Shown: positions 4,243 to 22,861 of the stretch, piece by piece
Position numbering within the stretch: position 1 is the first letter of the stretch
Layout of the letters: every line of letters begins with the position of its first letter
DNA from: a virus
Virus record (IMG/VR): IMGVR_UViG_3300036852_000292
Coordinates: 1 to 22,951 of that record
Direction: 5' to 3' (one strand)
Length of the DNA stretch: 22,951 nucleotides
The notes under the pieces: generated by a model
Seen by the model: the letters and a program-made list of their open reading frames with translations, nothing else
Database searches by the model: none
What the model was told of the DNA's origin: nothing
Made by a program: the position numbers and the translations under genes

Positions 4243-4286
4243 TGGGCCTCAGCGCGAAAGCCCGTCGCCAGCTAGGAGCCGAATGA
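4242..4286 (+). CDS. Bridging mini-ORF, 14 codons
   Basis: The ATG overlaps the previous stop (TAATG) and its TGA overlaps the ATG of the DNA methyltransferase (ATGA). The peptide is MGLSAKARRQLGAE. The methyltransferase ribosome binding site (AGGAG, 4274-4278) lies inside it. It probably serves translational coupling if it is used at all. Confidence 0.3.
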   Translation: MGLSAKARRQLGAE

Positions 4287-5035
4287 AGCCGTACTACGAA
4301 CAATCCGGCGTGACGATCTACCACGGAGATTGCCTCGACGTCTTGCCTGAACTGTCTCGGCCTGATCTAATTTTGACTGATCCGCCTTACAACGTTTCTG
4401 CGCGCGGGATTGGCGGTCGCGCCAACACGACGATCGGCCGTGTGCCTCGAAAGGACGGAACAACGCGCGAGATTCAGCGAGACTACGGCGAGTGGGATCA
4501 CGACTGGCAGCCAGAACCATTCGTGAGGCATCTAGCCGAGCTGGTGCGCATGGGAGGCGCCGTCGTGTCGTTCGTTTCGGAGTTCACGATGCCCGCGTTT
4601 TTAGAGAGCGGGCTCGATCATCGCGGCTTGTTGTTCTGGAGAAAGACGAATCCCGAGCCGAGCTTTCGGAAACAGATCGTTCGCGCGATCGAGATGGCAG
4701 TGTGGCAGACGCGAGGCGGTGGCTGGACATTCAACGCAGGCGGTTACTGTCCGAATGTCTGGGACGTGCCGATCATCAACAGCTACACCTGTGAAAACAC
4801 GAACGAGCGGCGTTGGCATCTAACGCAGAAACCCGAGGCGCTGATTCAGCAATGGGTCGCTCTTTTCAGCAACGTTGGCGATCTGGTGCTCGATCCATTT
4901 TTCGGCAGCGGAACGACGTTGGTCTGCGCGAAGCGATTAAACCGACGCGCCGTCGGCATCGAGATCGAAGAGCGTAACTGCGAGATCGCGGCGATACGCT
5001 TGCAGCAGGAAGCCTTACCCTTGGAAGTGGCCTGA
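4283..5035 (+). CDS. DNA methyltransferase, beta class (N6-adenine type)
   Basis: 250 residues, start fixed by AGGAG five bases upstream and an ATGA junction. It opens with MKPYYEQSGVTIYHGDCLDV, a form typical of phage and plasmid N6_N4_Mtase proteins. The catalytic motif IV DPPY is at residues 33-36 and the SAM-binding motif I (DPFFGSGTT) at 204-212. Motif IV before motif I places it in the beta group; DPPY favours N6-adenine over N4-cytosine. The segment RWHLTQKPEALIQQW is the usual motif before motif I. The residues in between form the target-recognition region. No restriction partner is adjacent, so it is an orphan enzyme, most likely protecting phage DNA or altering regulation. The recognition site cannot be read from the sequence. 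Confidence 0.9.
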   Translation: MKPYYEQSGVTIYHGDCLDVLPELSRPDLILTDPPYNVSARGIGGRANTTIGRVPRKDGTTREIQRDYGEWDHDWQPEPFVRHLAELVRMGGAVVSFVSEFTMPAFLESGLDHRGLLFWRKTNPEPSFRKQIVRAIEMAVWQTRGGGWTFNAGGYCPNVWDVPIINSYTCENTNERRWHLTQKPEALIQQWVALFSNVGDLVLDPFFGSGTTLVCAKRLNRRAVGIEIEERNCEIAAIRLQQEALPLEVA

Positions 5036-7110: not shown

Positions 7111-7148
7111 GTGAATTGGCTAGCCTCCCGCGAGTCCCCAAGGAGTAG
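7107..7148 (+). CDS. Bridging mini-ORF, 13 codons
   Basis: ATG overlaps the previous stop; the frame ends at TAG 7146-7148, five bases before the TTG start of the NeuB-like gene, and contains that gene's AGGAG. Peptide MSELASLPRVPKE. Probably a coupling element rather than a functional peptide. Confidence 0.3.
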   Translation: MSELASLPRVPKE

Positions 7149-7153
7149 ATGGG

Positions 7154-7870
7154 TTGGCCATTGAACTGATTGCCGAAGTCGCATCCAGCCATGGTGGCGA
7201 TCTCGAGCTGGCAAAAGCGTTCATCTGGCAATGCGCCGAAGCAGGTGCGGATTTCGTGAAATTTCAATCCTATCAAGTGACGACCTTGCGACCGACCGAT
7301 CCGCAACGGGCGTGGCTCGCCCAAGCGGAACTGTCGGACGATGCCCATTATGTATTGCGCGACGAATGCCACCGTGCGGGAGCCACATTCCTCACGACAG
7401 CGTTTCATGCGAACCGCGTGCCATTTCTCGCGAAGTTGGGGATGCCGGCGATCAAGATCGGCAGCGGGGAGGCTGGCGAGGCGGATCTCTTCAAGGCGAC
7501 TGGTCAGTATCCTTGGCGGCGATTCGTGTCGGCGGGGCTGCAGAATATGCGATCCTGGGTCGAAAGTCGCTGCGAACGATTTCGATGTGTGAGCCGGTAT
7601 CCGGCGCCAGCGAATAGCGTCTTGTGCTTCCAGCCATTCGGGGCCGTCTCCGATGGGCGCTATGTCGGCTGGTCTGATCATTGTGTTGGCATCAATGATT
7701 GCCAACTGGCAATTCTGCGCGGAGCTCGCATGATCGAAAAACATATAGCGCTGCGTGAACAGAAGCGTGAGCGGCGGCCCTGGGAAGCGACGATCGAAGA
7801 TTTGAAGTCGTTACGTCAATTTGCGGACGAGGATCCGCACGAGTATCAAGGACGATGGCAGGCCATATGA
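7154..7870 (+). CDS. neuB: NeuB-like nonulosonic acid synthase, catalytic barrel only
   Basis: 238 residues from TTG 7154, with AGGAG at 7141-7145. The family condenses phosphoenolpyruvate with an N-acetylated hexosamine (such as ManNAc) to make sialic-type acids in a TIM barrel. Matching segments: ELIAEVASSHGG (E8), GADFVKFQSY (K36), LTTAFHANRVPFLAKLG, AIKIGSGEAGEADLF (K101, E106), CVSRYPAP, VGWSDHCVGI (H176, probable metal ligand) and MIEKHIAL (E195, H197). The residues I know as catalytic or metal-binding in NeuB are kept. Usual NeuB proteins are ~340 residues and end in a SAF (antifreeze-like) domain; here that domain is absent, and the conserved GPDH segment after EKH is altered (RERRPWEAT). 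Activity is plausible but the missing SAF domain, which completes the active site of a partner subunit, is a real question. Confidence 0.85.
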   Translation: MAIELIAEVASSHGGDLELAKAFIWQCAEAGADFVKFQSYQVTTLRPTDPQRAWLAQAELSDDAHYVLRDECHRAGATFLTTAFHANRVPFLAKLGMPAIKIGSGEAGEADLFKATGQYPWRRFVSAGLQNMRSWVESRCERFRCVSRYPAPANSVLCFQPFGAVSDGRYVGWSDHCVGINDCQLAILRGARMIEKHIALREQKRERRPWEATIEDLKSLRQFADEDPHEYQGRWQAI

Positions 7871-7920
7871 TCAGTCTCCGGGGGAAGCGATTACTTCAAC
7901 CTCCATTACGAGGATTTTGA
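7867..7920 (+). CDS. Bridging mini-ORF, 17 codons
   Basis: ATG overlaps the NeuB-like stop (ATGA); its TGA ends directly before the ATG of the methyltransferase at 7921. Peptide MISLRGKRLLQPPLRGF. The methyltransferase GAGG lies inside it. Confidence 0.3.
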   Translation: MISLRGKRLLQPPLRGF

Positions 7921-8592
7921 ATGGAACACGTTGGGCATCCATTCCCTGACCAGATCGGGCAACGTCTTGATCACCCCGAAGAAGTCGATGCGAAGTACCA
8001 GCATCTGATTGCTGACGATCAGCAACGCGTCGCACGCATTCTGAGCTTCAAGGTCTGTGGTCGTGTCCTTGACGTGGGGTGTTCCGATGGAGCGATTACG
8101 AGGCGGATTGCGGAGCGGTGGGACGTGAAAATCCTTGGCGTGGATACATACGATGGCATGGGGGGCCAATGGGCGGCGCGCCTTCACAAGAATATGAGTT
8201 ATGAGCGGTGGGATGTGCGGATGCGTAGCGTCGACCTAGCGGGTGGCTTCGATGCCGTCTATGGCTGTGAAGTGTTGGAACATCTCACCGACGCGGATGC
8301 CGCGACGGCCCTCCAGAACATGTTGGCCGTGCTCAGGTCTGGCGGCGATCTGATCGTGACAGTGCCCAATCGTAATTGCGCCGAACGGTATGTGGCCGGC
8401 TGTCGCGATCGTTGGAAGTGGCCCGATCACCGGAGCGTCTGGACCGCGAACAAACTCTTTGATTTCCTGCGTCCGCATTTCCCGTGTTTCCGAAACGGAA
8501 TACGCGGCAATATTGAGTTTGTGCCACTTTACGACGGAGAACGGGCCGAAGAGTCGATTTGGCTCATTGTGCGAGCGAGGGGTAAGCGATGA
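7921..8592 (+). CDS. SAM-dependent methyltransferase (class I)
   Basis: 223 residues. Motif I is VLDVGCSDG (49-57), the acidic end of strand 2 is GVDTYDG (73-79), and DAVYGCEVLEHL (111-122) is the typical post-II/motif IV region of Methyltransf_11/25 proteins acting on small molecules or sugars. GDLIVTVPNRNCAERY matches the following strand with VPN. These features are normal for O- or N-methyltransferases in sugar clusters. It lies between the NeuB-like and NeuC-like genes, so methylation of the nonulosonic acid or of a precursor is a reasonable guess; the substrate is not shown. The start is supported by upstream GAGG and by the bridging frame ending at 7920. Confidence 0.85.
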   Translation: MEHVGHPFPDQIGQRLDHPEEVDAKYQHLIADDQQRVARILSFKVCGRVLDVGCSDGAITRRIAERWDVKILGVDTYDGMGGQWAARLHKNMSYERWDVRMRSVDLAGGFDAVYGCEVLEHLTDADAATALQNMLAVLRSGGDLIVTVPNRNCAERYVAGCRDRWKWPDHRSVWTANKLFDFLRPHFPCFRNGIRGNIEFVPLYDGERAEESIWLIVRARGKR

Positions 8593-8846
8593 GCGACGAT
8601 GTGAAGACTGAAGATTGGCGGGAAGCGATCCAATATGCGGCGATAGTCTATGCTCGGCACTGTGCAGGATGCTGCGCACATATCATCCTTGACGACTGCA
8701 ACATTGAGCAGGACCACGCAGAGTACTGTTTACACCATGCGCGCCACGTGGGCCACGCCGATTGCATCGCACTTTGTGAAGTCTTGGTGCGCATGTCGCC
8801 GACGCAGCGCAAGAAGCTCTATCACTGCAATGAGTTCCGCTCGTGA
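8589..8846 (+). CDS. Small Cys/His-rich protein
   Basis: 85 residues; ATGA junction with the methyltransferase. Cys and His are dense: YARHCAGCCAHIILDDCNIE, then AEYCLHHARHVGHADCIALC. The C-terminus (MSPTQRKKLYHCNEFR) looks structured. A metal-binding or Fe-S role is possible. I recall similar short phage proteins but no function. Its stop overlaps the GTG of the NeuC-like gene, so it is embedded in the sugar operon. Confidence 0.65.
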   Translation: MSDDVKTEDWREAIQYAAIVYARHCAGCCAHIILDDCNIEQDHAEYCLHHARHVGHADCIALCEVLVRMSPTQRKKLYHCNEFRS

Positions 8847-9985
8847 AGATCGCCATCATCATCACGGCACGCCCTTCTTACGCGCGTATCAAAACGGCTA
8901 TCACGGCGCTCATCGCGCGTGGCGTCGAGGTGCACATTCTGGCGTGCGCATCAGCGCTGCTTGAGCGCTATGGAAAGGTGGTCGATGTCATCCGCCAAGA
9001 CTTCCTACAGACGCCGATCACAGAGTGTTGGTCGACCTACGAAGGCGCGAACCTCGTCACGTCGGTCAAGGAAACTGGAGCCATTACCGCCGAACTCGCG
9101 AGCGTCTTGTCCCAATTGCGGCCGGACTGGGCACTCGTGGTTGCAGATCGGCACGAAGTACTCGGCGCTGCACAAGCTGCAGCCTATTTACATCTGCCTC
9201 TCGTTCATGTCCAAGGTGGCGAGCGAACAGGCTCAATTGATGACAAGGTGAGAGATTCGATCACGCAGCTTGCTGACGTGCATTTCGTGGCGACACGGCG
9301 CGCAAAACATCGCGTGTATGGATTAACGGGTGCGTGGCCGGACATTTACGTGACCGGCTGTCCCTCGATTGACTTGGCGAGGCAGGCCGTACACGAGCCA
9401 TTCGTGACGGGGCGTGAAATCGGAGGCAGCGGCTTAGGGCTGTGGGCAGGCCACGTGCTCAATCGACCGATCGTGGTCTTGCAGCATTCCGTGACGAACG
9501 AAGCATCGGAAGCGACCGCGCAGATGCGCACCACGCTCACGGCCTGCCTCAAGGCTGCTAGGCCAGTGCTGGCGCTTTGGCCTGGCGAGGATGCCGGCGC
9601 GGAAGGCATCTCCAAGGTGCTGCGCGTCGAACAAGGCTGGGTGCACACGGTGCGCAATCTGCCCGCAACGCGCTTCCTGCGATTGCTGACGCAGTGTGCT
9701 TGTCTCGTCGGAAATAGCTCGGTCGGGATTCGTGAGTGCTCGTATCTGGGCGTGCCGGTCGTGAACATTGGGACACGCCAGCAGGGGCGCGAACGGGGAC
9801 CGAATGTCCTCGACGTGCCACATGATGCGGTGCAGATTGCAGTGGCCATTCAACGGCAGATCGCGCATGGGCGCTACCCGTCCTCATCGCTCTATGGGTC
9901 AGGCGATGCCGGTGAAAAGATTGCGGATGTGCTCTGTGGGGTGAGAGAACGTGCTAAAGACCGATGGGACACTGAGCGAGTTTAA
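8843..9985 (+). CDS. neuC: NeuC-like hydrolysing UDP-N-acetylglucosamine 2-epimerase
   Basis: 380 residues, GTG start in a GTGA overlap; the length is normal for the family, which hydrolyses UDP-GlcNAc-type sugars to free ManNAc-type sugars plus UDP. Family segments in order: KIAIIITARPSYARIKTAI at the N-terminus, LVVADRHEVLGAA (D102), HVQGGERTGSIDD (E127, D134), VLQHSVTNEA (H215), LVGNSSVGIRE (GNSS 290-293) and VNIGTRQQGRERGP. The GGExTGSID motif is typical of NeuC and its legionaminate relatives rather than of WecB. One oddity: the usual Arg-His after that motif reads Arg-Asp (137-138) here. The product would feed the NeuB-like enzyme encoded upstream. Confidence 0.88.
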   Translation: MKIAIIITARPSYARIKTAITALIARGVEVHILACASALLERYGKVVDVIRQDFLQTPITECWSTYEGANLVTSVKETGAITAELASVLSQLRPDWALVVADRHEVLGAAQAAAYLHLPLVHVQGGERTGSIDDKVRDSITQLADVHFVATRRAKHRVYGLTGAWPDIYVTGCPSIDLARQAVHEPFVTGREIGGSGLGLWAGHVLNRPIVVLQHSVTNEASEATAQMRTTLTACLKAARPVLALWPGEDAGAEGISKVLRVEQGWVHTVRNLPATRFLRLLTQCACLVGNSSVGIRECSYLGVPVVNIGTRQQGRERGPNVLDVPHDAVQIAVAIQRQIAHGRYPSSSLYGSGDAGEKIADVLCGVRERAKDRWDTERV

Positions 9986-10025
9986 GGCGCTCGTAGATTA
10001 TCTGGAGCGCGAATGTCGACGTTAG
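9951..10025 (+). CDS. Bridging small ORF, 24 codons
   Basis: GTG at 9951 lies inside the end of the NeuC-like gene and the TAG at 10023-10025 lies inside the start of the NeuA-like gene. The peptide (MLKTDGTLSEFKALVDYLER, ECRR) has a regular amphipathic helix pattern. It spans the only gap between NeuC and NeuA. It is the most protein-like of the bridging frames. Confidence 0.4.
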   Translation: MLKTDGTLSEFKALVDYLERECRR

Positions 10026-10750
10026 CTATCGTACCGGCTCGGGAAAACTCGAAGGGCATCCCGAACAAGAACTTCCGGCCATTAGCAGGCGAGACGCCAA
10101 TGGAGCGCGCGGTGCGCGTGGCCCATGTGGTTGCAGATGTGATTGTGCTCACGAGCGACACGTCGAAAGCAACCAACCCATTCTGGATCGGTCGGCCTGT
10201 TGGGTGGAACAAGTCATTCGCCCGTCTCATACGCCCACCAGAACTCGCACGAGACGACACGCCCATGATCGATGTCGTGAAACATGTGCTTGCAGAGATT
10301 CCAGGTCCAGATGATCAAATCATCGTGTTGTTGGAGCCGACGCAGCCCTTGCGGAAACCTGAGCATGTGACACGCGCGATTGACTTATTGCAGGAGGCGC
10401 AGGCCGATAGCGTGGTGAGCGTGGTGCCATTGCCGCCGACGCACTCGCCAGAATTAGTACTGCGAATTGACGAGGGGCAGTTGTGGCAGTGGTGCGAGGA
10501 CGGCACGGTTCGTCATGTGGGCGATAGCATGATGAGTCATGCCGCACGGCCCCAACGTCGGCAGGATGCTACACAGGTGTATATGCGCGACGGCACCGTC
10601 TACGCCTTCCGGCGAAGAACCGTCAGGCGGTATGGAAACGTTTATGGTGATGATGTTGTACCACTCATCATCCCAGCCCGTGAATCTTGCCCATTGGATA
10701 CACCGGAAGATTGGGCCGAAGCCGAACGGCGGTTACGTGCGCGCGATTGA
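10013..10750 (+). CDS. neuA: NeuA-like CMP-nonulosonic acid synthetase (cytidylyltransferase)
   Basis: 245 residues from ATG 10013 with GGAG upstream. The signature IVPARENSKGIPNKNFRPLA (residues 6-25) is the nucleotide-binding loop of CMP-NeuAc synthetases. It is followed by VIVLTSDTSKA, RPPELARDDTPMIDVVKHVL, IVLLEPTQPLR (LxPTxPLR, 107-114), DSVVSVVPLP and RRQDATQVYMRDGTVYAFRR. The end has CPLDTPEDWAEAE where sialate synthetases usually have xDxDTxED, so the second Asp (D229) is kept and the first position is Pro. The enzyme activates a nonulosonic acid with CTP for transfer. Length is normal. Which sugar it takes (sialic, legionaminic, pseudaminic or other) cannot be told here. Confidence 0.88.
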   Translation: MSTLAIVPARENSKGIPNKNFRPLAGETPMERAVRVAHVVADVIVLTSDTSKATNPFWIGRPVGWNKSFARLIRPPELARDDTPMIDVVKHVLAEIPGPDDQIIVLLEPTQPLRKPEHVTRAIDLLQEAQADSVVSVVPLPPTHSPELVLRIDEGQLWQWCEDGTVRHVGDSMMSHAARPQRRQDATQVYMRDGTVYAFRRRTVRRYGNVYGDDVVPLIIPARESCPLDTPEDWAEAERRLRARD

Positions 10751-11165
10751 AATCCCCTTTGTCTGCGACCAGCGCGGCGACTGCTGCCGACATCCTCCCT
10801 TCGTGTTGATGACCGAAGACGAGGCGGTCTTGCTCGAGGCGGCCCGCGATCGCGCCATGCGTGAATTGGACTGGCAAGAGGACGAGCCATCAGGTCGGTT
10901 CGTGAAGCTGATGGGAAAGCCTTGTCCATTCTTAGGCGCTGACGGGCTGTGCGCAGTCTATGAGATTCGCCCCTACAACTGCCGGCGGTTCATCTGCGGT
11001 CGGCCATCTAGGTCATCAGAGCCGTGGCAAGAGACGTCTGACGGCCGCTGCGCCAATGTGACGGAGCGGCTGAGCCAGTCGGTGGCGTTCTTTCGACATG
11101 CGGACGAGCTCCAAACAGCATCGCAGCCATGGGCTCTCCAGCATGGCTGGCGCCGGACTGATTAA
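10737..11165 (+). CDS. YkgJ-family cysteine-cluster (Zn/Fe-chelating) protein
   Basis: 142 residues from GTG 10737, overlapping the NeuA-like gene by 14 bases. Cluster motifs: FVCDQRGDCCRHPPFVLMTE (C10, C16, C17, then PP) and GKPCPFLGADGLCAVYEIRP (C63, C72), followed by YNCRRFICG (C82, C87). This is the CxnCCxxPP ... PCPFLxxxxCxVYExRPxxCRxF pattern of the UPF0153/YkgJ family, predicted to bind zinc or an Fe-S cluster. The family's role is poorly known. Its tight coupling to the cytidylyltransferase suggests a place in the sugar pathway, perhaps modifying the sugar, but this is inference. Confidence 0.85.
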   Translation: MRAIEIPFVCDQRGDCCRHPPFVLMTEDEAVLLEAARDRAMRELDWQEDEPSGRFVKLMGKPCPFLGADGLCAVYEIRPYNCRRFICGRPSRSSEPWQETSDGRCANVTERLSQSVAFFRHADELQTASQPWALQHGWRRTD

Positions 11166-11167
11166 GA

Positions 11168-11521
11168 GTGAGCGAATACGGCGTGACGCTATCGTATCTG
11201 GTCAGGGCGCCGAAAGGCTGTGAAGCCATCATCTCTCTGTCAACAGCAGGCTGTGAAGCCATCATCCCTCTGTCAACAGCAGACGGTGCCTTGTATAACG
11301 CGTACTATCGCTATGAACGTCGTGGCCACGAATGGTGGGCCGTGTTGACTCGGATCGAGGAAATTATGCCGCCAGCAACCCCACAGACGCGGCGCCTCGA
11401 TGATCAGGCGCGCTGTCACATGATGGCTCAGGACGGCTCACTCGATTTCGAGGCGGAAGCCGCACAACGGCGCAAGGAATGGGCAGACCTGAATGCCCAA
11501 GAGCTTGGAGCAAGACGATGA
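11168..11521 (+). CDS. Hypothetical protein with internal tandem duplication
   Basis: 117 residues from GTG 11168, two bases after the previous stop. An 11-residue stretch (GCEAIISLSTA) is directly repeated near residues 17-38 because of a 33-bp tandem duplication. The remainder, NAYYRYERRGHEWWAVLTRI and a charged C-terminal helix (EAEAAQRRKEWADLNAQE), reads as a normal protein. No family recognised. Its stop overlaps the next ATG (ATGA). Confidence 0.65.
   Translation: MSEYGVTLSYLVRAPKGCEAIISLSTAGCEAIIPLSTADGALYNAYYRYERRGHEWWAVLTRIEEIMPPATPQTRRLDDQARCHMMAQDGSLDFEAEAAQRRKEWADLNAQELGARR
11215..11280 (+). repeat. 33-bp tandem duplication inside a gene
   Basis: 11215-11247 and 11248-11280 are identical except for one base (TCT versus CCT, Ser to Pro). 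The length is a multiple of three, so the frame is kept. The near-identity points to a recent event. Confidence 0.97.
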
Positions 11522-13672: not shown

Positions 13673-13900
13673 ATGTCTGCGATTACGGTGAAGTACAGCG
13701 ACGGGACGACCGCGAGTCAGACGACGACGGCGACGCCGCGGCTCCATGTGGTCGGACCGCCACACAAAGCGCATGAGGCGGGGCGGCGCTATCAGGGTGT
13801 GTACATCAAGGAGTCAGGGACGACGTTTCGGTGGGTCGCGGATGAGCCGATTGGGGCCTCGGCCACGGTGCCCACGGGCTTTGACGCGGACCGGGAATAA
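13673..13900 (+). CDS. Small beta-rich hypothetical protein (75 aa)
   Basis: ATG 13673 follows GGAAAAGG. It is Thr and Val rich with alternating strands (MSAITVKYSDGTTASQTTTA, then RLHVVGPPHKAH, YQGVYIKESGTTFRWV). It looks like a small all-beta protein. Its stop is joined to terL by TAATG, so it is co-translated with the large terminase. Confidence 0.65.
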   Translation: MSAITVKYSDGTTASQTTTATPRLHVVGPPHKAHEAGRRYQGVYIKESGTTFRWVADEPIGASATVPTGFDADRE

Positions 13901-15417
13901 TGGCGCGATGTTGTTGGTGTCGGGCGGACCTGGTCTCGGTGGCGGAGCGGTGGTGGTGTCCGACCGAGGTGTGTCGAAACCGGCAACGGGCGTATGCGGT
14001 GGGGCGCGGCACGGGGAAGGGCTGGACGTGGCTCTTTGTGCCAACGCCGAAGCAAGTCGACCTGATGGCGGCGCCAGAACCCTACCTCTTGTTTGGCGGG
14101 GCGGCTGGGTCCGCGAAGTCGCACGGGGCGCGCTGGATGCTCTACCGAGACTGTCTGCGCCCGAAGAAACGTGCCCCGATCGAATGTCTGCTGCTGCGCG
14201 AGACGTTCCCGGAGCTCGAACGCACGCATCTGCGGCGGATGGCTTACGAGGCACCGCTCATCGGCGCGACCTTTATCCCGTCGCGGCGGATGATGCAGTT
14301 TCCCGATGGGTCGCTGATCGAATGTGGCCACATGGACGACGAGGACGCAGTCCAGCGGTACTTGTCAGCCGAGTACGACCGGATTGTGCCGGACGAAGGA
14401 GTCCGGTTCAAACCGCGGCCGCTGTTGGAATTGAGCACGCGCACGGTCAAGCGGCGCCCAGGCGGTCAATTTATTGTGGTGACGAATCCGGGCGGGCCCT
14501 CGTCCCAAATGCTCTTGGATTTCTTCATCGACCATCAGCCGGACTTCGACGCGTTTGGCGAGGCGTTACAGACCGAGTATCGGCCGGCCGAGTGGCGCTA
14601 TATCGAAGCGACCTTGGACGACAATCCGTATCTCGATCCGGCCTATGCCGCCGCGTTGGCGATCTTGCCGCCCGCGCGCTACGAACAGTTGCGGCATGCG
14701 AATTGGCGGGTGCATGAAGGCCAGTTCTTTGGCGAATGGAATGAACGGACCCACATTGCCGCATTCGAGCCATCGCGCGATGGGCTGTGGTTCCGATCGC
14801 TCGACTGGGGACGCAATCAGCCTGGCTGCTGTCTGTGGTGGGCGGTCCTGCCCGACCATCAGCTCTATGTGCGCCGGGATTGGAAGTTCCAGGGCATGAG
14901 CGAACAAGAGGTGGCGGCCGGCGTGAAAGCCATCGATGTGGAGCTCGGGCTGCGAAAGGTGAGCTATACCGCGGCGGACCCGGCAATTTTCAACAAGACC
15001 GGGGCCACACACACGCAGGCGCAGTTTGTCGGGCAGTCGATCGGGGAGTCCCTGAATCACTATGGGTTGCGGCTGGTCAAGGCCGACAACGACCGGTTCA
15101 ACGGCTGGGGGCGCTGTCATGCGCTCCTGCGGCCGGCGCCGACCGGGGCGCCGTGGCTGCGGACGCATCCCGACTGCCGGTACCTGAATCGGTCGATACC
15201 GAATGCGCTGAGCGACAAGACCGATCCGGACGATGTGGACACGGCCAGCGATGACCATGCGTTGGACGCGTGGCGGTACGGCGCAATGAGTCGGCCCCAT
15301 CCATTGGGAATTGTCAAGACCCAGACGCGCTTTGCCCCAGGCACCATGGGCCATCTCCGGCAATCGGTTCGGCAGTGGGCCCACCGGCTGGGCAGCGAAA
15401 GTGCGCGCCATGCCTGA
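13900..15417 (+). CDS. terL: Phage terminase large subunit with N-terminal zinc ribbon
   Basis: 505 residues; start by TAATG overlap. The ATPase domain has Walker A GGAAGSAKS at 66-74 and a Walker B-type strand ending YDRIVPDE with the catalytic Glu at 166. IVVTNPGG near 192-199 fits the coupling motif. The RNase H-like nuclease domain has D302 (RSLDWGRNQPG), D360 (AADPAIF) and the late acidic pair and Asp in SDDHALDAWRYG (451-456). The first 30 residues (MARCCWCRADLVSVAERWWC plus PTEVCRNRQ) form a CxxC...CxxxxC zinc ribbon, a variant I recall in some soil and freshwater phages. The protein is the packaging motor, cutting and pumping DNA into the prohead through the portal encoded next. Confidence 0.95.
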   Translation: MARCCWCRADLVSVAERWWCPTEVCRNRQRAYAVGRGTGKGWTWLFVPTPKQVDLMAAPEPYLLFGGAAGSAKSHGARWMLYRDCLRPKKRAPIECLLLRETFPELERTHLRRMAYEAPLIGATFIPSRRMMQFPDGSLIECGHMDDEDAVQRYLSAEYDRIVPDEGVRFKPRPLLELSTRTVKRRPGGQFIVVTNPGGPSSQMLLDFFIDHQPDFDAFGEALQTEYRPAEWRYIEATLDDNPYLDPAYAAALAILPPARYEQLRHANWRVHEGQFFGEWNERTHIAAFEPSRDGLWFRSLDWGRNQPGCCLWWAVLPDHQLYVRRDWKFQGMSEQEVAAGVKAIDVELGLRKVSYTAADPAIFNKTGATHTQAQFVGQSIGESLNHYGLRLVKADNDRFNGWGRCHALLRPAPTGAPWLRTHPDCRYLNRSIPNALSDKTDPDDVDTASDDHALDAWRYGAMSRPHPLGIVKTQTRFAPGTMGHLRQSVRQWAHRLGSESARHA

Positions 15418-17383
15418 GCCGATCCTGCCGTTGCCGCCTGGGGCGGATTACGCGTTCTGGACTGGCGAAGTCGAGCGCGCCGATCGCGAGTACGACGCGC
15501 ATAAGACCAAGTGGCAGGAGAATCTCGACTATTACACGGGCCAGCCGCTCGCGAGTCCGCCGGAGACCGATTACGTCAACGTGAACGTGGACTTCTATCA
15601 GGTCGAACAGAAGCTGGCGCAATTGTTCTATGAGACGCCGGAACTTCAGGTCATAGCCAAACCTGCGCTCGTCGGCGCGGAATCCATCCTCCAAACGCAT
15701 CGGCAATTGTTGAATGAGGTCATGGGGCCGGATCATGCCGATGTGCTGACGACGATTCACAAAGCCATCAAAGAATGCTTGTGTACCTCAGGCTTCGGTG
15801 CGACCAAGATTTGTTATCAGCCGACGGTCAAAGCGGTCCCCGCCCCGCAGCAATTCGGTGCCATGCTCGGTTTGCAGCCGGACGTGCAGGTGCCAATCTA
15901 CGAGGAATGGATCTGGACGGACATTCCCTCGTCCAAGCTACGGATTCCAGCGGATTTCAAGAGCTGCCATTACGACAAAGCCCCGTGGCTGGGGTTTCGC
16001 TTCCGCATGCCGTTGACGGTCGCGCACTCGACGCTCACGCTACCGCCTGACTTCAGGGGCACGACCACGAAAGATGAGCATCAGTATCAATCGGCGGAGA
16101 CCACGAACGAGACCGCGGGCTTGCACTATGTGGATGGGATTGAGCTGTGGTATCGAACGGCCATGTTCGACCCGACCGTTTTGCATCCCGAAGCATTCCG
16201 CCGGCTCGTCTTGATCGACGGGTTGGATCAGCCTGCCGCCCATGCCGATTCGCCCTATCAGACCTTTGACGGACAGGGGCGGTTGACGCCCGATTCGATG
16301 ATCGGGAATCCGATTCACATCTTCGCCATTCGGGATGTGCCCGATTCGGCGTATGTGCCCTCGGATTCGCAGATGACGCGGCCCCTGGTGAAGGAGCTGT
16401 GTCGCTTCCGCACGCAGATGGTCAAAGAACGCGACGCGAATCGGCCTCGTGTCTTGTATGACTCCGACAAGCTCCCGCCAGAAGTCATCGCGAAGATCGC
16501 GAGTGGCGAGATTGGCGATTTGATTCCGACCGAAGGCGGCGCACTGGCGCAAGGCGTCGCATCGATCATGGCGGTCGTTCAGCAAGGCCAGAGCCCGCGC
16601 CAGACCTATCTCGCCAACGACATCATCACGCGGGACATCGAGAAGACCCATGCGATCGATGCCAGCGGGGCCGGGGTCACGGACACGCAGGACGAGACCG
16701 CGACGAAGACCGCGACAGTTGATCGGAACCGTGCGGTGCGCCTGGACGCGGAACGCGCGCGCATCTTGCGGCAGTATCTGAAGGGTGTGGCGAAATTCTC
16801 AGCCTTGGTCGTTCGCTATCTGACGCCTGATCTGGCGGCCCGGTATGTCGGTCCACAAGCGGCCCAGGCCTGGGCGCAGGCCAAGGCCCAGATCGCGATG
16901 GGCTTCACCGCGAAACCCGATAGTCAGATCCGTCTCGATGCGGCGCAGGAACGCCGCTACGCCCTGCAGCTCTATCAGATGTGCGCGCAGGATCCGAATG
17001 TCGTTCGTGTCGAGCTCCTGAAAGACCTGTTCATGAAGGCAGGACGCGATCCGGCGAAGTTGGTCGTGGAGCAGTTGCCGGAGAAAACACCGGAGCCGAA
17101 CATTAGTTATCGCTTCAATGGCGAAGACCTGTATAACCCGATGGTGCGCGAGATCCTTGCGCAGGCTGGAGTCAAGATTTCGCAAGATTCGATCGACCAG
17201 TCGGCAAGCCAGATGTACAAACAGGTGGCGCTCGGACTGCGCGATGTGAGCGGGAAGGCCGTCCCACCCACGCCGCGGCCCATGGAACACGGGGGGCCGG
17301 CGCAGCAGGTGCGGTCCTTGAGCAAACAGCAGGGCGATGAGACGGGGCAGCGTCCTGGTCCCGCCGTGGGAGCCGCGGCATGA
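15410..17383 (+). CDS. Portal protein
   Basis: 657 residues from ATG 15410, overlapping the terL stop by eight bases; a start at 15311 would lie deep in terL. Position directly after terL, size and pattern fit a portal. The N-terminal part has YDAHKTKWQENLDYYTGQPL, followed by VNVNVDFYQVEQKLAQLFYE (a portal wing-type region). LVKELCRFRTQMVKERDANR lies in the middle, followed by the helical stem region around QDETATKTATVDRNRAVRLD. The C-terminus is Gln/Gly/Pro rich (PRPMEHGGPAQQV). Portals form the dodecameric DNA gate at one capsid vertex. The large size is closer to podophage-type portals. No protease or Mu-gpF-like fusion is visible. Confidence 0.85.
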   Translation: MPEPILPLPPGADYAFWTGEVERADREYDAHKTKWQENLDYYTGQPLASPPETDYVNVNVDFYQVEQKLAQLFYETPELQVIAKPALVGAESILQTHRQLLNEVMGPDHADVLTTIHKAIKECLCTSGFGATKICYQPTVKAVPAPQQFGAMLGLQPDVQVPIYEEWIWTDIPSSKLRIPADFKSCHYDKAPWLGFRFRMPLTVAHSTLTLPPDFRGTTTKDEHQYQSAETTNETAGLHYVDGIELWYRTAMFDPTVLHPEAFRRLVLIDGLDQPAAHADSPYQTFDGQGRLTPDSMIGNPIHIFAIRDVPDSAYVPSDSQMTRPLVKELCRFRTQMVKERDANRPRVLYDSDKLPPEVIAKIASGEIGDLIPTEGGALAQGVASIMAVVQQGQSPRQTYLANDIITRDIEKTHAIDASGAGVTDTQDETATKTATVDRNRAVRLDAERARILRQYLKGVAKFSALVVRYLTPDLAARYVGPQAAQAWAQAKAQIAMGFTAKPDSQIRLDAAQERRYALQLYQMCAQDPNVVRVELLKDLFMKAGRDPAKLVVEQLPEKTPEPNISYRFNGEDLYNPMVREILAQAGVKISQDSIDQSASQMYKQVALGLRDVSGKAVPPTPRPMEHGGPAQQVRSLSKQQGDETGQRPGPAVGAAA

Positions 17384-19557: not shown

Positions 19558-20526
19558 ATGCCGGATCCCAACGTAGGCGTCACCATCGCGGCGTCGTGGA
19601 ACGCGCTCGTGAATGACACGCCGGAAGACAACATCTTCATCGACAACTGGTTCCTCAATCGTCTCAAGAACGGCGACGGCTTCGTCTCGACCGATGGGGG
19701 CGACATCATCACCGCCTCGCTCGAATACGCGGTGAACGGCACGGTCACGTCCTACAGCGACACCGAGACGATCTCGACGACGCGTCAGGATGTATTCGAT
19801 CGCGCGCAGTACAACTGGAAAGAGTACGCCGGTACCGTCGTCCAGTCGGAGCTCGAAAACGCCATCAACCAGGGCGGGGCGAAGAAATTCGACCTGCTCA
19901 AGGCGAAGCTCGCCAACCTCAAAAAGAGCTTTGACCGGCAGTTCGACATCGACCTGCATGGCGACGGCACCGCGAACAGCAGCAAAGTGCTCGGCGGCCT
20001 GCAGGCGCTGGTCTTGACCTCGCCGGCCACTGGTACCACTGGCGGCATCAACCGCGCGACGTTTTCGTTCTGGCGCAATCAGCAGGCGTCAGGCGCGAAG
20101 ACGACATCAGCCTTCGACAATCTGCGCGCTTCCCTGCGCAGCGTCTACAACCTCTCGTCCAACGGCGTGGCGGGCGATCATCCGAAGTTCGTCGAGATGG
20201 ATCGCGCCTCGTTCGAGGGCCTCGAAGGGCTCTTGCTCGCGAACGAGCGGTTCACGTCCAAGGCCGAAGCGGATGGCGGATTCAAGAACGAAGTCTTGAA
20301 GTTCAAAGGCGCGATGTGCGCGTACGGGCCGAACGTGGCGGCTGGCTACGCGTATCTCCTGAACCCGGCCTACGTGAAGCTCCAGTACCTGAAAGGGCAC
20401 TGGTACAAGGCTGGCGAAACCGTGGAACCCGCGAACCAGACCGTCAAGGTGTTCAAGGTCCACACCATCTGCAACCTGATCGGCACCAACCTGCGCATGG
20501 TTGGCGTGGTCAACGGCATCACGTAA
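19558..20526 (+). CDS. Major capsid protein (HK97-like fold family)
   Basis: 322 residues; AGAAGGG precedes the ATG. Segments I recognise from this capsid family: LEYAVNGTVTSYSDTETIST, YNWKEYAGTVVQSELENAIN, FDLLKAKLANLKKSF, DLHGDGTANSSKVLGGLQAL, TTGGINRATFSFWRN. The middle has a tail-on P-domain-like region (GLEGLLLANERFTSKAEADG). The gene follows the scaffold with a 16-base gap. The order scaffold, capsid, decoration is standard. The protein forms the icosahedral shell. No DUF or protease fusion is present, so any scaffold removal would need a host or other phage protease. Confidence 0.9.
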   Translation: MPDPNVGVTIAASWNALVNDTPEDNIFIDNWFLNRLKNGDGFVSTDGGDIITASLEYAVNGTVTSYSDTETISTTRQDVFDRAQYNWKEYAGTVVQSELENAINQGGAKKFDLLKAKLANLKKSFDRQFDIDLHGDGTANSSKVLGGLQALVLTSPATGTTGGINRATFSFWRNQQASGAKTTSAFDNLRASLRSVYNLSSNGVAGDHPKFVEMDRASFEGLEGLLLANERFTSKAEADGGFKNEVLKFKGAMCAYGPNVAAGYAYLLNPAYVKLQYLKGHWYKAGETVEPANQTVKVFKVHTICNLIGTNLRMVGVVNGIT

Positions 20527-20548: not shown

Positions 20549-21208
20549 ATGGCGTATCTCGTAGGACCAGGGCCGATCGCGCTCCCCGGCGGGCCGGGCG
20601 GTGGCGGCGGCACCTCAAACGTGTTTTCACAAACCTCGGGCAATCCTGGCCCTGGGTTTCCGGTGCGACCGGGAACCAGGGCGCATGACCAGGACGGCAA
20701 TCAGTACATCTTTCTGGACTACACCTCGACGCTCTACGCGTTCCAGGCGTGCCAGATCATGGATGACAACACCGCGCAGACGCTCGGTGTTGGCGCGGGC
20801 TTCGGCACGCGCGTCGGCGTCGTGCAGCAGGGCGGCACCTCGGACCAGGGCGGCTGGGTGATGATTTACGGCCGCACGTTCATGCAGGTCGGGATCAACG
20901 GCGCCTCCCCGTCGGATGCGGCGAACGGCCCGACCACGCTCCGCACCACGCAGGCCACCGTCTTTGTCGTGCCGACGTCGCTCACGTCCCCGATGACGCT
21001 GGGGTATACGTCGGACGGCAACACCTCGACGGCGATTCAGCGCGTGCGTGGGATCTGGGTCGCGTTCGATGCCTCCCCGGCGGATGTCTCCACCTCGGGC
21101 ACCACGCTCAACGGCGTGGCCTCGACGTCGGCAACCTCGTTCATCGGGGCGGCGATTGCGGTGTTTCTGAACTACCCAGTCATTGAGAGTCAGGACAACC
21201 CGAGCTAA
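20549..21208 (+). CDS. Putative capsid decoration or head-associated protein
   Basis: 219 residues from ATG 20549, after AGGAAAGGAACAGGA. The N-terminus is very Gly and Pro rich (LVGPGPIALPGGPGGGGG). The rest is beta-rich, Thr/Ser/Gly heavy: RPGTRAHDQDGNQYIFLDYT, GVGAGFGTRVGVVQQGG, WVMIYGRTFMQVGINGASPS and GIWVAFDASPADVSTSG. The pattern of a small beta-barrel with long loops directly after the capsid gene fits decoration or cement proteins. I cannot name a family. Many Thr and Ser residues could be glycosylation sites (inference). Confidence 0.65.
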   Translation: MAYLVGPGPIALPGGPGGGGGTSNVFSQTSGNPGPGFPVRPGTRAHDQDGNQYIFLDYTSTLYAFQACQIMDDNTAQTLGVGAGFGTRVGVVQQGGTSDQGGWVMIYGRTFMQVGINGASPSDAANGPTTLRTTQATVFVVPTSLTSPMTLGYTSDGNTSTAIQRVRGIWVAFDASPADVSTSGTTLNGVASTSATSFIGAAIAVFLNYPVIESQDNPS

Positions 21209-21213
21209 GTCGG

Positions 21214-21996
21214 ATGTTCACGTTGATGACCTCGCTGGAGGGGCCGGTGCGACGCCGGCCCCCCTTTTTCAAGACGTCGAAGCTGGGGCTGATTGGTTGT
21301 ACGGAATCGGTGGTTCATACGCCGTGGCATGACCCGAGCTGGACGCTCGCGGCACATGCCTCAGCCCGCCAGCACTGTAAGCGCGAGCCCGATTGGTGGT
21401 TCGACCTGCATCGACGGGAATGTTTCACGCAGCAGAAAGCGTGGAACCGGCGGTATTGGGAGTGGCTGTCCACCACGATCACGCCGGTGTTCATGCAGGA
21501 AGCCTACGCGGATATTCCGGCGGCCGTGAAGTATCCCAAGGCACGAATCCTCGCGGAGTTTCGCCCGTACTTCACGAATCACGTGGCGTGGATGATTGCG
21601 CTCGCGATGACAGAGGGCATCAAGACGATCGGCTTGTTCGGCTGTCAGTACAAATGCGACACGGAGTACGGGATTCAGCGGGGCAGTTGTGAGTACTGGC
21701 TCGGCCGGTTCGAGCAATACGGCGGCACGCTGGTGTTGCCGGGCCCGCGCCAGACGCTCTTGAACAAGCCGTCGAAACTCTACGGCTACGAATCGCACGA
21801 TGCCGACGGGAAATTGATCGCGGAGTACCGCGCGCAAACGGCTGCGGTCGCGAAGACCGATGCGCACGGGCATGCGGCGATGGCTCCGTTGACGATCCTT
21901 GAGCCCGGCGCGGCACCGCCGCGGCATCTGGACGTCGGGGAACCGGTGGCCTGGGAACGGTCAGGATTCGTACATCCCGAATTGGTGGCGCAGTGA
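21214..21996 (+). CDS. Rossmann-like protein, paralogue 1 (DUF115/GT42-like in outline)
   Basis: 260 residues if started at ATG 21214. The first ~23 residues span a terminator hairpin and have no counterpart in the paralogue at 22214, where the equivalent of KLGLIGCTES is the N-terminus. Domain features: LGLIGCTE, a typical beta-alpha start; DWWFDLHRRE; VFMQEAYADIP; VAWMIALAMTEGIKTIGLFG, a strand/helix pattern seen in DUF115/MptE-like and GT42 sialyltransferase-type proteins; CEYWLGRFEQYGG; KLYGYE at the end of the core. The last 65 residues are an extra tail. It shares many positions with the second copy. Directly downstream of head genes. Enzyme activity is a hypothesis; it could also be a structural or nucleotide-binding protein. 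Confidence 0.6.
   Translation: MFTLMTSLEGPVRRRPPFFKTSKLGLIGCTESVVHTPWHDPSWTLAAHASARQHCKREPDWWFDLHRRECFTQQKAWNRRYWEWLSTTITPVFMQEAYADIPAAVKYPKARILAEFRPYFTNHVAWMIALAMTEGIKTIGLFGCQYKCDTEYGIQRGSCEYWLGRFEQYGGTLVLPGPRQTLLNKPSKLYGYESHDADGKLIAEYRAQTAAVAKTDAHGHAAMAPLTILEPGAAPPRHLDVGEPVAWERSGFVHPELVAQ
21240..21269 (+). terminator. Strong intrinsic terminator inside the start of the next gene
   Basis: GGGGCCGG (21240-21247) and CCGGCCCC (21255-21262) form an 8-bp all-GC stem around TGCGACG, followed by CC and TTTTT (21265-21269). It fits the end of the capsid/decoration transcript. It lies 26 bases into the reading frame that begins at 21214, so ribosomes moving on that frame would disrupt the hairpin. 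Confidence 0.9.
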
Positions 21997-22217
21997 ACGC
22001 ACGCCAGGTGCGTCGGCAAATCGCCAACGCCAAGCCGTGGGTGCAGCGCGTGCTGGATCTTCTCGACCTGTGCGATTGGAAAACCTGGGTGTGGTACTCG
22101 CTGCTCGGCATCGAAAAGATCGTGACCGGACTGATCGTACGCGCGAAGCGGCGTGGGTTTCAGCCGGGAGAAATGCGCGTGAAGCGCGGCAAGTTTTACG
22201 TGGTGCCAAAGCGATGA
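21993..22217 (+). CDS. Small hypothetical protein between two paralogues
   Basis: 74 residues from GTG 21993 (GTGA overlap). The N-terminal half is helical (MNARQVRRQIANAKPWVQRV, then LDLLDLCDWKTWVWYSLLGI). The C-terminal half is basic (VRAKRRGFQPGEMRVKRGKF). An amphipathic or membrane-touching segment is possible around WVWYSLLGIEKIVTGLI. No family recognised. Its position inside a duplicated pair suggests it was inserted during or after duplication. Confidence 0.6.
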   Translation: MNARQVRRQIANAKPWVQRVLDLLDLCDWKTWVWYSLLGIEKIVTGLIVRAKRRGFQPGEMRVKRGKFYVVPKR

Positions 22218-22861
22218 GGATTGCCATGATCGGCTGCGCGCGCACCTGGGCCGACGCGCCCTATGACGATCCGGCATGGACCATCTGGGCACATTGCTCG
22301 GCGCAACCCTATCTCCGCGGTCGACGTGTCGATCGGTGGTTCGACCTGCACAAGGTGGAAGTCTGGCGCCAGGGCAAGGTCTGGTATCAATCGCGCGGGA
22401 CCGATCCGGCAACCTATGTGGACTGGCTCATCACGCGGCCTCAACCGATTGTGATGCAAGCCCGGTATCCACTCATTCCACTGAGCGAGGCGTATCCGTT
22501 AGCGGCCATCGTCGAGACATTCGGGATTGTGCCCGCGCATTTGAACCTCACGCCGACGGATTCGCGCTGGTGGGATTGGGTGCGCGATCGGGGCGAATTC
22601 TCATCGACTTTCGCCTACATGTTGGCGCTCGCGCTCTACGAGGGCGATGTCGAAGAAATTGCGCTCTATGGCATCGATTTCGCGCAAGTCCAAACCGGCG
22701 AAGGCACCGAGGAATATCGCCAGCAACGGCCGGGCGCGAAGTATTGGGTCGGCGTCGCGCGCGGGTTGGGGATTCCGGTCACCGTCGCGCGCGGCAGTCA
22801 GTTCGAGCGACAGGACTGGATCTATGGCTACGAAGTGAAACCGGAACCGGTAGGAGTATGA
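22214..22861 (+). CDS. Rossmann-like protein, paralogue 2 (DUF115/GT42-like in outline)
   Basis: 215 residues; start at an ATGA junction. Shared features with the copy at 21214: MRIAMIGCART at the N-terminus, DPAWTIWAHCSAQ, DRWFDLHKVE, PIVMQARYPLIPLSEAYP, SSTFAYMLALALYEGDVEEI followed by ALYGIDFAQ, EEYRQQRPGAKYWVGVARGL, and DWIYGYEV at the end. The stretch from MLALA to GIDF is the part that recalls CstII-like (GT42) and DUF115 proteins (AxALGYKEIYLSGIDF type). The N-terminus lacks the GNGPSL loop of GT42, so a direct assignment is not supported. Likely binds a nucleotide or nucleotide-sugar (inference). Confidence 0.65.
   Translation: MRIAMIGCARTWADAPYDDPAWTIWAHCSAQPYLRGRRVDRWFDLHKVEVWRQGKVWYQSRGTDPATYVDWLITRPQPIVMQARYPLIPLSEAYPLAAIVETFGIVPAHLNLTPTDSRWWDWVRDRGEFSSTFAYMLALALYEGDVEEIALYGIDFAQVQTGEGTEEYRQQRPGAKYWVGVARGLGIPVTVARGSQFERQDWIYGYEVKPEPVGV

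Follow-up and report, generated by a model that had tools for sequence, protein, structure and literature searches.

We identified, in a virus of bacteria, three adjacent genes predicted to serve the synthesis and activation of a nonulosonic acid, accompanied by two copies of a putative transferase that we call W. The window analyzed here is a single viral contig taken in its whole length (22,951 bp). With moderate confidence, we interpret these genes as a virus-resident glycosylation module, in which CMP-nonulosonic acid would be made by the phage and transferred by W, probably onto virion proteins. We hold more tentatively, at slightly less than even chances, the broader proposal that self-contained viral sialylation modules of this kind, made up of a NeuB without SAF domain, NeuC, NeuA and a new transferase family distant from GT42, are widespread and unrecognized, retained by phages so that they can cover their capsids with an acidic nine-carbon sugar. 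The features discussed below are:

7154..7870, plus strand: NeuB-like nonulosonic acid synthase without SAF domain, 238 aa; TTG start, with AGGAG at 7141-7145
7921..8592, plus strand: SAM-dependent methyltransferase, generic class I (Methyltransf_25, 6e-14), of uncertain role
8589..8846, plus strand: ORF for a small Cys/His-rich protein, with a 4-base overlap with each neighbor and no Pfam match above cut-off
8843..9985, plus strand: NeuC-type hydrolysing UDP-GlcNAc 2-epimerase
10013..10750, plus strand: NeuA-type CMP-nonulosonic acid synthetase
10539..11165, plus strand: ORF for a CxxCxxCC (YkgJ-type) protein (PF03692, 7e-7)
13900..15417, plus strand: terminase large subunit TerL, context (PHROG phrog_2, 3e-27)
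15410..17383, plus strand: portal-position protein, context; no PHROG match, named from position and conservation, with homologues behind TerL in L005-L008 and L011
19558..20526, plus strand: major head protein, context (PHROG phrog_9953, 3e-40)
20549..21208, plus strand: Ser/Thr-rich protein (21% S+T) between the capsid gene and W
21214..21996, plus strand: W protein, copy 1, GT42-like putative transferase with some degenerate family motifs
22214..22861, plus strand: W protein, copy 2, GT42-like putative nonulosonic acid transferase

The NeuB, NeuC and NeuA ORFs were recovered at the positions and on the strand given in the earlier note, which had proposed a phage-borne core pathway, and HMM and PDB sequence searches agree on all three. 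The proposal is best supported by NeuC, which scored 263.9 bits against the NCBIfam model NeuC_NnaA (TIGR03568), above the curated cut-off of 235.9, and matched Pfam Epimerase_2 with an E value of 2e-53. Its top PDB relative is human GNE (4zht, 4e-51). Residues D102, E127, D133 and H215 (window numbering), which we take to be catalytic, align with GNE and are invariant in seven viral NeuCs. The viral NeuCs form deep clusters separate from those of bacteria.

NeuB matched the Pfam family of the same name (PF03102) with 99.4 bits against a cut-off of 22.1 (E 3e-28), and its closest PDB relative is the sialic acid synthase 6ncs (7e-14). The match to NCBIfam NeuB_NnaB (TIGR03569; E 9e-34, 116.9 bits) falls below the equivalog cut-off of 399.65, and we therefore make no claim that the protein is a true NeuB equivalog. 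The C-terminal SAF domain is missing from this short protein; a SAF match was obtained in only 2 of 49 viral NeuBs, against all 20 bacterial NeuBs scanned. The core residues of the barrel are invariant across the 49 viral relatives. Since the window lineage combines the lack of SAF with a shortened loop at a conserved Asp, the activity or substrate of its NeuB may differ.

The assignment of NeuA rests on Pfam CTP_transf_3 (PF02348, 2e-13), on the PseF model (3e-22; 79 bits, below the equivalog cut-off of 206) and on the PDB, where all five matches are NeuA/CMP-NeuAc synthetases (best 2e-19). KdsB-type models reached 6e-8 or weaker, placing the cytidylyltransferase domain nearer to NeuA/PseF than to KdsB. 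A best match to unrelated or KdsB-type families, which the earlier note had named as grounds for refutation, was thus not found, and a KDO pathway was rejected on model scores and PDB matches. The legionaminate/pseudaminate precursor branch was also rejected, as no DegT aminotransferase was found in 32 records.

The two W copies near the capsid gene belong to an unannotated viral family. When the W profile was compared with all PDB sequences, the sole matches were GT42 sialyltransferases (E 0.004-0.075). The AF2 model of copy 2 (pLDDT 90.8) had CstII as its first fold match (E 5.5e-4, TM 0.48, 13% identity, probability 1.00), followed by thiamin pyrophosphokinases, in a fold common to MptE-like proteins too. 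Pfam CST-I matched 4 of 61 W members (best E 2e-4) and did not match the window copies at its gathering score; several CstII residues are missing from these copies. Gene neighborhood also links W to the pathway: in eight viral contigs its gene is placed between those for NeuB and NeuC, and in L124, L084, L085 and L103 it adjoins NeuC or NeuA. W is present in 34 of the 48 Neu records tested, with none seen in the other 14, and some phages with W, such as Mvi-Yong1342-1, show no Neu genes within the part of the sequence that was read. W was absent from 80 bacterial NeuC loci, and its profile found no match in 40 NeuC-bearing bacterial genomes; a CST-I search of the same 40 genomes also found none but is uninformative, having given nothing in the controls either. 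Sequence profile, predicted fold and gene neighborhood together suggest that W may be a GT42-like nonulosonic acid transferase and a candidate, missed in the earlier note, for the last step of the pathway. With such a candidate, what was a sugar-activation pathway becomes a plausible complete sialylation module.

During infection, NeuC, as its above-cut-off family match implies, would convert host UDP-GlcNAc into ManNAc, and the SAF-less NeuB would condense PEP with ManNAc or a closely related sugar to give a nine-carbon acid, which NeuA would activate to CMP-nonulosonic acid. Judging from profile, fold and gene neighborhood, the GT42-like W proteins, with no obvious membrane anchor, would transfer the sugar to an acceptor, and virions carrying an acidic nine-carbon sugar would be the outcome. 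The acceptor is most likely a protein of the phage particle, because the head module contains or adjoins both cassette and W, and because one architecture has W immediately after a Ser/Thr-rich protein that neighbors the capsid gene. This is the weakest step of our explanation. The Ser/Thr-rich protein itself gave an all-beta model of low confidence with no significant fold match; it is possibly a capsid decoration protein and a candidate acceptor.

The cassette is a recurrent one. NeuB, NeuC and NeuA are encoded together on one strand in 43 of 48 non-redundant NeuC-bearing viral contigs, with a median span of 3.4 kb, and adjoin the head genes or lie among them, in some contigs within the terminase-portal-capsid module. 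The cassette genes are under purifying selection (dN/dS 0.03-0.39). A control scan with the window's DNA methyltransferase returned only two loci, too few for a background. The earlier note had also read the interleaved genes as a hint of a tailored sugar. This part is weak: a generic class-I methyltransferase does recur in the vicinity of many cassettes, whereas neither the Cys/His nor the YkgJ-type gene is a constant member. A YkgJ-type homologue occurs in viral contig L007 (13664-14116). The first ATG of the window's YkgJ-type ORF gives a 212-base overlap with NeuA, and its real start is probably further downstream.

A chimera or misassembly of phage sequence with a capsule locus from a bacterium, the other ground for refutation named beforehand, might be suspected, given that the window is one unconfirmed metagenomic contig and that NeuB and NeuC are nearly absent from a collection of 50,697 phage records. 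The same gene set, however, recurs with TerL, portal and MCP homologues in L005-L008, L011, L014, L024, L029 and others, and the viral NeuBs are distinct as a class in lacking SAF, so that we give this explanation practically no weight. Host contamination was rejected, as the cassette recurs with head genes. Very improbable, too, is DNA hypermodification, in which modified bases in the phage genome would carry the nine-carbon sugar. DNA-modifying phage glycosyltransferases are known, as cited in PMC12619734, yet the thymidylate synthase/hydroxymethylase family was found in only one of 32 cassette-related records, as a partial match, and not in the window.

The fate of the activated sugar leaves two alternatives of more substance. 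W or host enzymes could place it on host LPS, capsule or flagellin, blocking rival phages or altering adsorption. Bacterial nonulosonic acids do decorate cell surfaces, GT42 enzymes act on lipooligosaccharide (PMC5813019), and there are known cases of phages with genes for editing the nonulosonates of the host (PMC12053666). Nevertheless, the cassette and W belong to the late head module and are not grouped with early or lysogenic-conversion genes, no membrane segment was found in the window's W proteins, and W follows a capsid-region protein in one architecture; we therefore consider such remodeling the less likely use, at perhaps one chance in a few. It is less probable still that W is no sugar transferase but belongs elsewhere in its fold group, as an MptE- or thiamin pyrophosphokinase-like enzyme, with a host transferase using the CMP-sugar. 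The second-best fold matches and weak Pfam MptE-like matches in some W members point that way, but the PDB profile matches are exclusively to GT42 and the site between NeuB and NeuC is recurrent.

If virion sialylation by the phage is confirmed, some phages would themselves make, activate and attach sialic-type sugars, and with a NeuB working without the domain seen in every bacterial homologue scanned. The recurrent, uncharacterized W family would gain a function and become a new source of sialyltransferase-like enzymes. Virion sialylation would become directly testable, with consequences for adsorption, particle stability and phage recognition. In the open literature searched, neither a phage cassette of NeuB, NeuC and NeuA nor a GT42-like transferase of viral origin turned up; since subscription papers and preprints are for the most part outside its coverage, this absence is not proof.

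The phage cassette shares NeuC, NeuB and NeuA homologues, gene adjacency and reaction logic with bacterial neuABC clusters, but differs in being virus-borne beside head genes, in its SAF-less NeuB and separate NeuC clusters, and in having W-type proteins in place of the known host transferases. W resembles the GT42 sialyltransferases (CstII, CstI and that of Pasteurella multocida), its first matches by profile and fold, in the G-x-x-x-S and G-[IV]-D regions and in the ties of its genes to CMP-nonulosonic acid synthesis. It departs from them in its low identity (about 13%) and TM (about 0.48), in the failure of Pfam CST-I on the window copies, in an invariant His within a WF-x-x-H motif and in being, in this sampling, exclusively viral. 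In mycobacteriophages, the phage's own transferases, Che8 gp110 and Corndog gp38, add glycans to capsid or tail proteins (Freeman et al. 2023, as cited in PMC12363180 and PMC12619734). This is the same kind of function as proposed here, although no nonulosonic acid synthesis genes are reported for those phages and the transferases are unrelated to W as far as tested. Prophage EpaA/EpaB of Acinetobacter and phage O-acetyltransferases (PMC12053666, PMC6586298) are likewise phage genes acting on nonulosonic acids; they edit the capsular sugar of the host, whereas the cassette described here would build and activate its own from UDP-GlcNAc.

The IMG/VR virus record is linear (22,951 bp) and is spanned entirely by the window, with every recognised gene on the + strand. 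The features discussed here are the following:
7154-7870, + strand, NeuB
8843-9985, + strand, NeuC
10013-10750, + strand, NeuA
13900-15417, + strand, TerL
15410-17383, + strand, conserved portal-position protein
19558-20526, + strand, major head protein
20549-21208, + strand, Ser/Thr-rich protein
21214-21996 and 22214-22861, + strand, two members of W, a viral protein family without annotation

Searches against Pfam, NCBIfam and PDB sequences support the three Neu genes where the earlier note had placed them, and identify NeuA as NeuA/PseF-type, not KdsB-type. NeuC is the firmest of the three identities, scoring above the NCBI NeuC_NnaA cut-off and having human GNE as its closest solved relative. 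NeuB, although it has the NeuB barrel, is just 238 aa long and scores far under the equivalog cut-off. Elsewhere in the window we found a phrog_67-type N6/N4 DNA methyltransferase (4283-5035; PHROG 2e-52), an ORF with a CxxC...HH...CxxCH pattern, HNH endonuclease-like by eye (1811-2365), a 33-bp direct repeat of 2.1 copies within a small ORF (11215-11282) and 43 copies of a 12-bp tandem repeat (1-519), over which an ORF, open at the contig start, encodes GAV-x four-residue repeats.

The Neu genes lie 5' of those for TerL, the portal-position protein and the major head protein, and homologues of these three adjoin the same Neu genes in the related viral contigs L005, L006, L007, L008 and L011; identity between L005 and the window is 59% for NeuC and 66% for the head protein. 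A NeuC profile scan retrieved 49 viral contigs. Once duplicates had been dropped and the window, together with contigs from other scans, had been added, there were 48 NeuC-bearing contigs, 43 of which carry NeuB, NeuC and NeuA on one strand (median span 3.4 kb); in the other five, an end of the contig or of the retrieved sequence cuts the set or is close to it. In L011, L024 and L029 the cassette is flanked by TerL-portal and head protein. Because the set recurs beside head genes in further viral contigs, a chance chimera, one of the outcomes that the earlier note named as refuting its reading, is ruled out. NeuB homologues also occur in an uncultured phage of 484 kb (LR756508.1, 322778-323521) and in marine virus AG-345-L05 (MH319754.1, 87485-88288).

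In a NeuC tree that combines 45 viral with 20 bacterial sequences, the viral label needs two changes (shuffle mean 17.3). Viral sequences fall into two large groups, and the smallest starred sets containing the window (7 and 12 rows) are viral throughout; the tree was built by a quick method, with bacterial members picked for their resemblance to the viral profile, which limits what it says about the root and the number of transfers. Among related pairs where it was computable and non-zero, dN/dS was 0.03-0.39.

From profile-match start to stop, viral NeuBs mostly measure 233-306 aa (two reach 330 and 334), against 330-343 aa in bacteria. The C-terminal SAF domain, which provides one contact with ManNAc at its N-acetyl group, is present in 2/49 viral and 20/20 bacterial NeuBs. 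Residues K36, Q38, K101, Y149, S174, H176, E195 and H197, of the sort that bind PEP and metal in NeuB, are invariant across the 49 viral proteins, so the reaction type is likely kept; the exact sugar is uncertain, since SAF is absent and the window lineage has a shorter version of the loop whose sequence is GxDH in other NeuBs. A search of 32 records for a DegT-type aminotransferase, a requirement for legionaminate and pseudaminate precursors, found none, which favours a neuraminate-like product.

Searches of Pfam, NCBIfam and PHROGs gave no significant match for either W copy of the window. When a profile built from 61 W proteins was run against 177,635 PDB sequences (E up to 10), nine matches came back, each a GT42 sialyltransferase (E 0.004-0.075). 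The top fold match of the AF2 model (pLDDT 90.8, pTM 0.88) is CstII (E 5.5e-4, probability 1.00, TM 0.48, 13% identity); a Pasteurella sialyltransferase also ranks high, followed by thiamin pyrophosphokinases. The stretch from NeuB to NeuC contains W in eight non-redundant contigs; W also adjoins NeuC or NeuA in contigs L124, L084, L085 and L103, and is present in 34 records of a separate Neu-bearing set of 48, searched whole. Conversely, NeuB occurs in 12/38 further records found through W alone, and in 8/11 of the W-found records of at least 40 kb (size split by our own count); in contrast, NeuB queries run on 50,697 phage records match one and three of them. Profile, fold, neighbourhood and co-occurrence, each modest, together make W the likely transferase, which we do not assign to GT42 because it falls short of the Pfam gate.

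Two W copies occur in the window, where some of the family motifs are gone from copy 1, two in L024 and three in the L059 record, as if serving different acceptors. A W homologue annotated as 'type 11 methyltransferase' lies just upstream of the terminase genes of Microcystis phage Mvi-Yong1342-1 (L221, PP496355.1, 19938-20741), whose record carries a phage name and gives a culture source. Compared with BFVD, the W model is also similar to proteins of the DUF115/MptE-like kind from giant viruses and from other uncultured Caudovirales, which hints at a larger viral superfamily.

Beyond gene content, gene order, conservation, core residues and fold similarity, which are established, UDP-GlcNAc would be converted to ManNAc, ManNAc to a nonulosonic acid (NulO) and this to CMP-NulO, whose NulO W would transfer. 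A role of W other than transferase is possible, its fold being common to MptE/TPK-type enzymes and some W phages, such as Mvi-Yong1342-1, showing none of the Neu genes over the portion that was read; the combined evidence makes a transferase the likelier reading. The least certain step is the acceptor, for which we favour a virion protein because of the head-module placement, the finding that neither W protein of the window has a membrane segment, and the Ser/Thr-rich protein (21%) between the capsid gene and W. A hydrophobic stretch occurs in 9/119 W sequences. Homologues of the Ser/Thr-rich protein have W within 2 kb after them in 23/28 contigs, a figure biased because many of these were found through W; its model is all-beta and of poor quality, and the similarity it shows to capsid decoration proteins does not reach significance. 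The product may instead serve to change the host surface; use of the sugar in DNA modification is judged unlikely.

With partial coverage of the literature, we found no paper on a phage-encoded module for synthesis, activation and putative transfer of nonulosonic acids. The component parts are of known kinds: enzymes by which phages edit the nonulosonates of their hosts are known (PMC12053666), as are phage transferases that glycosylate virions (Freeman et al. 2023, as cited in PMC12363180 and PMC12619734).
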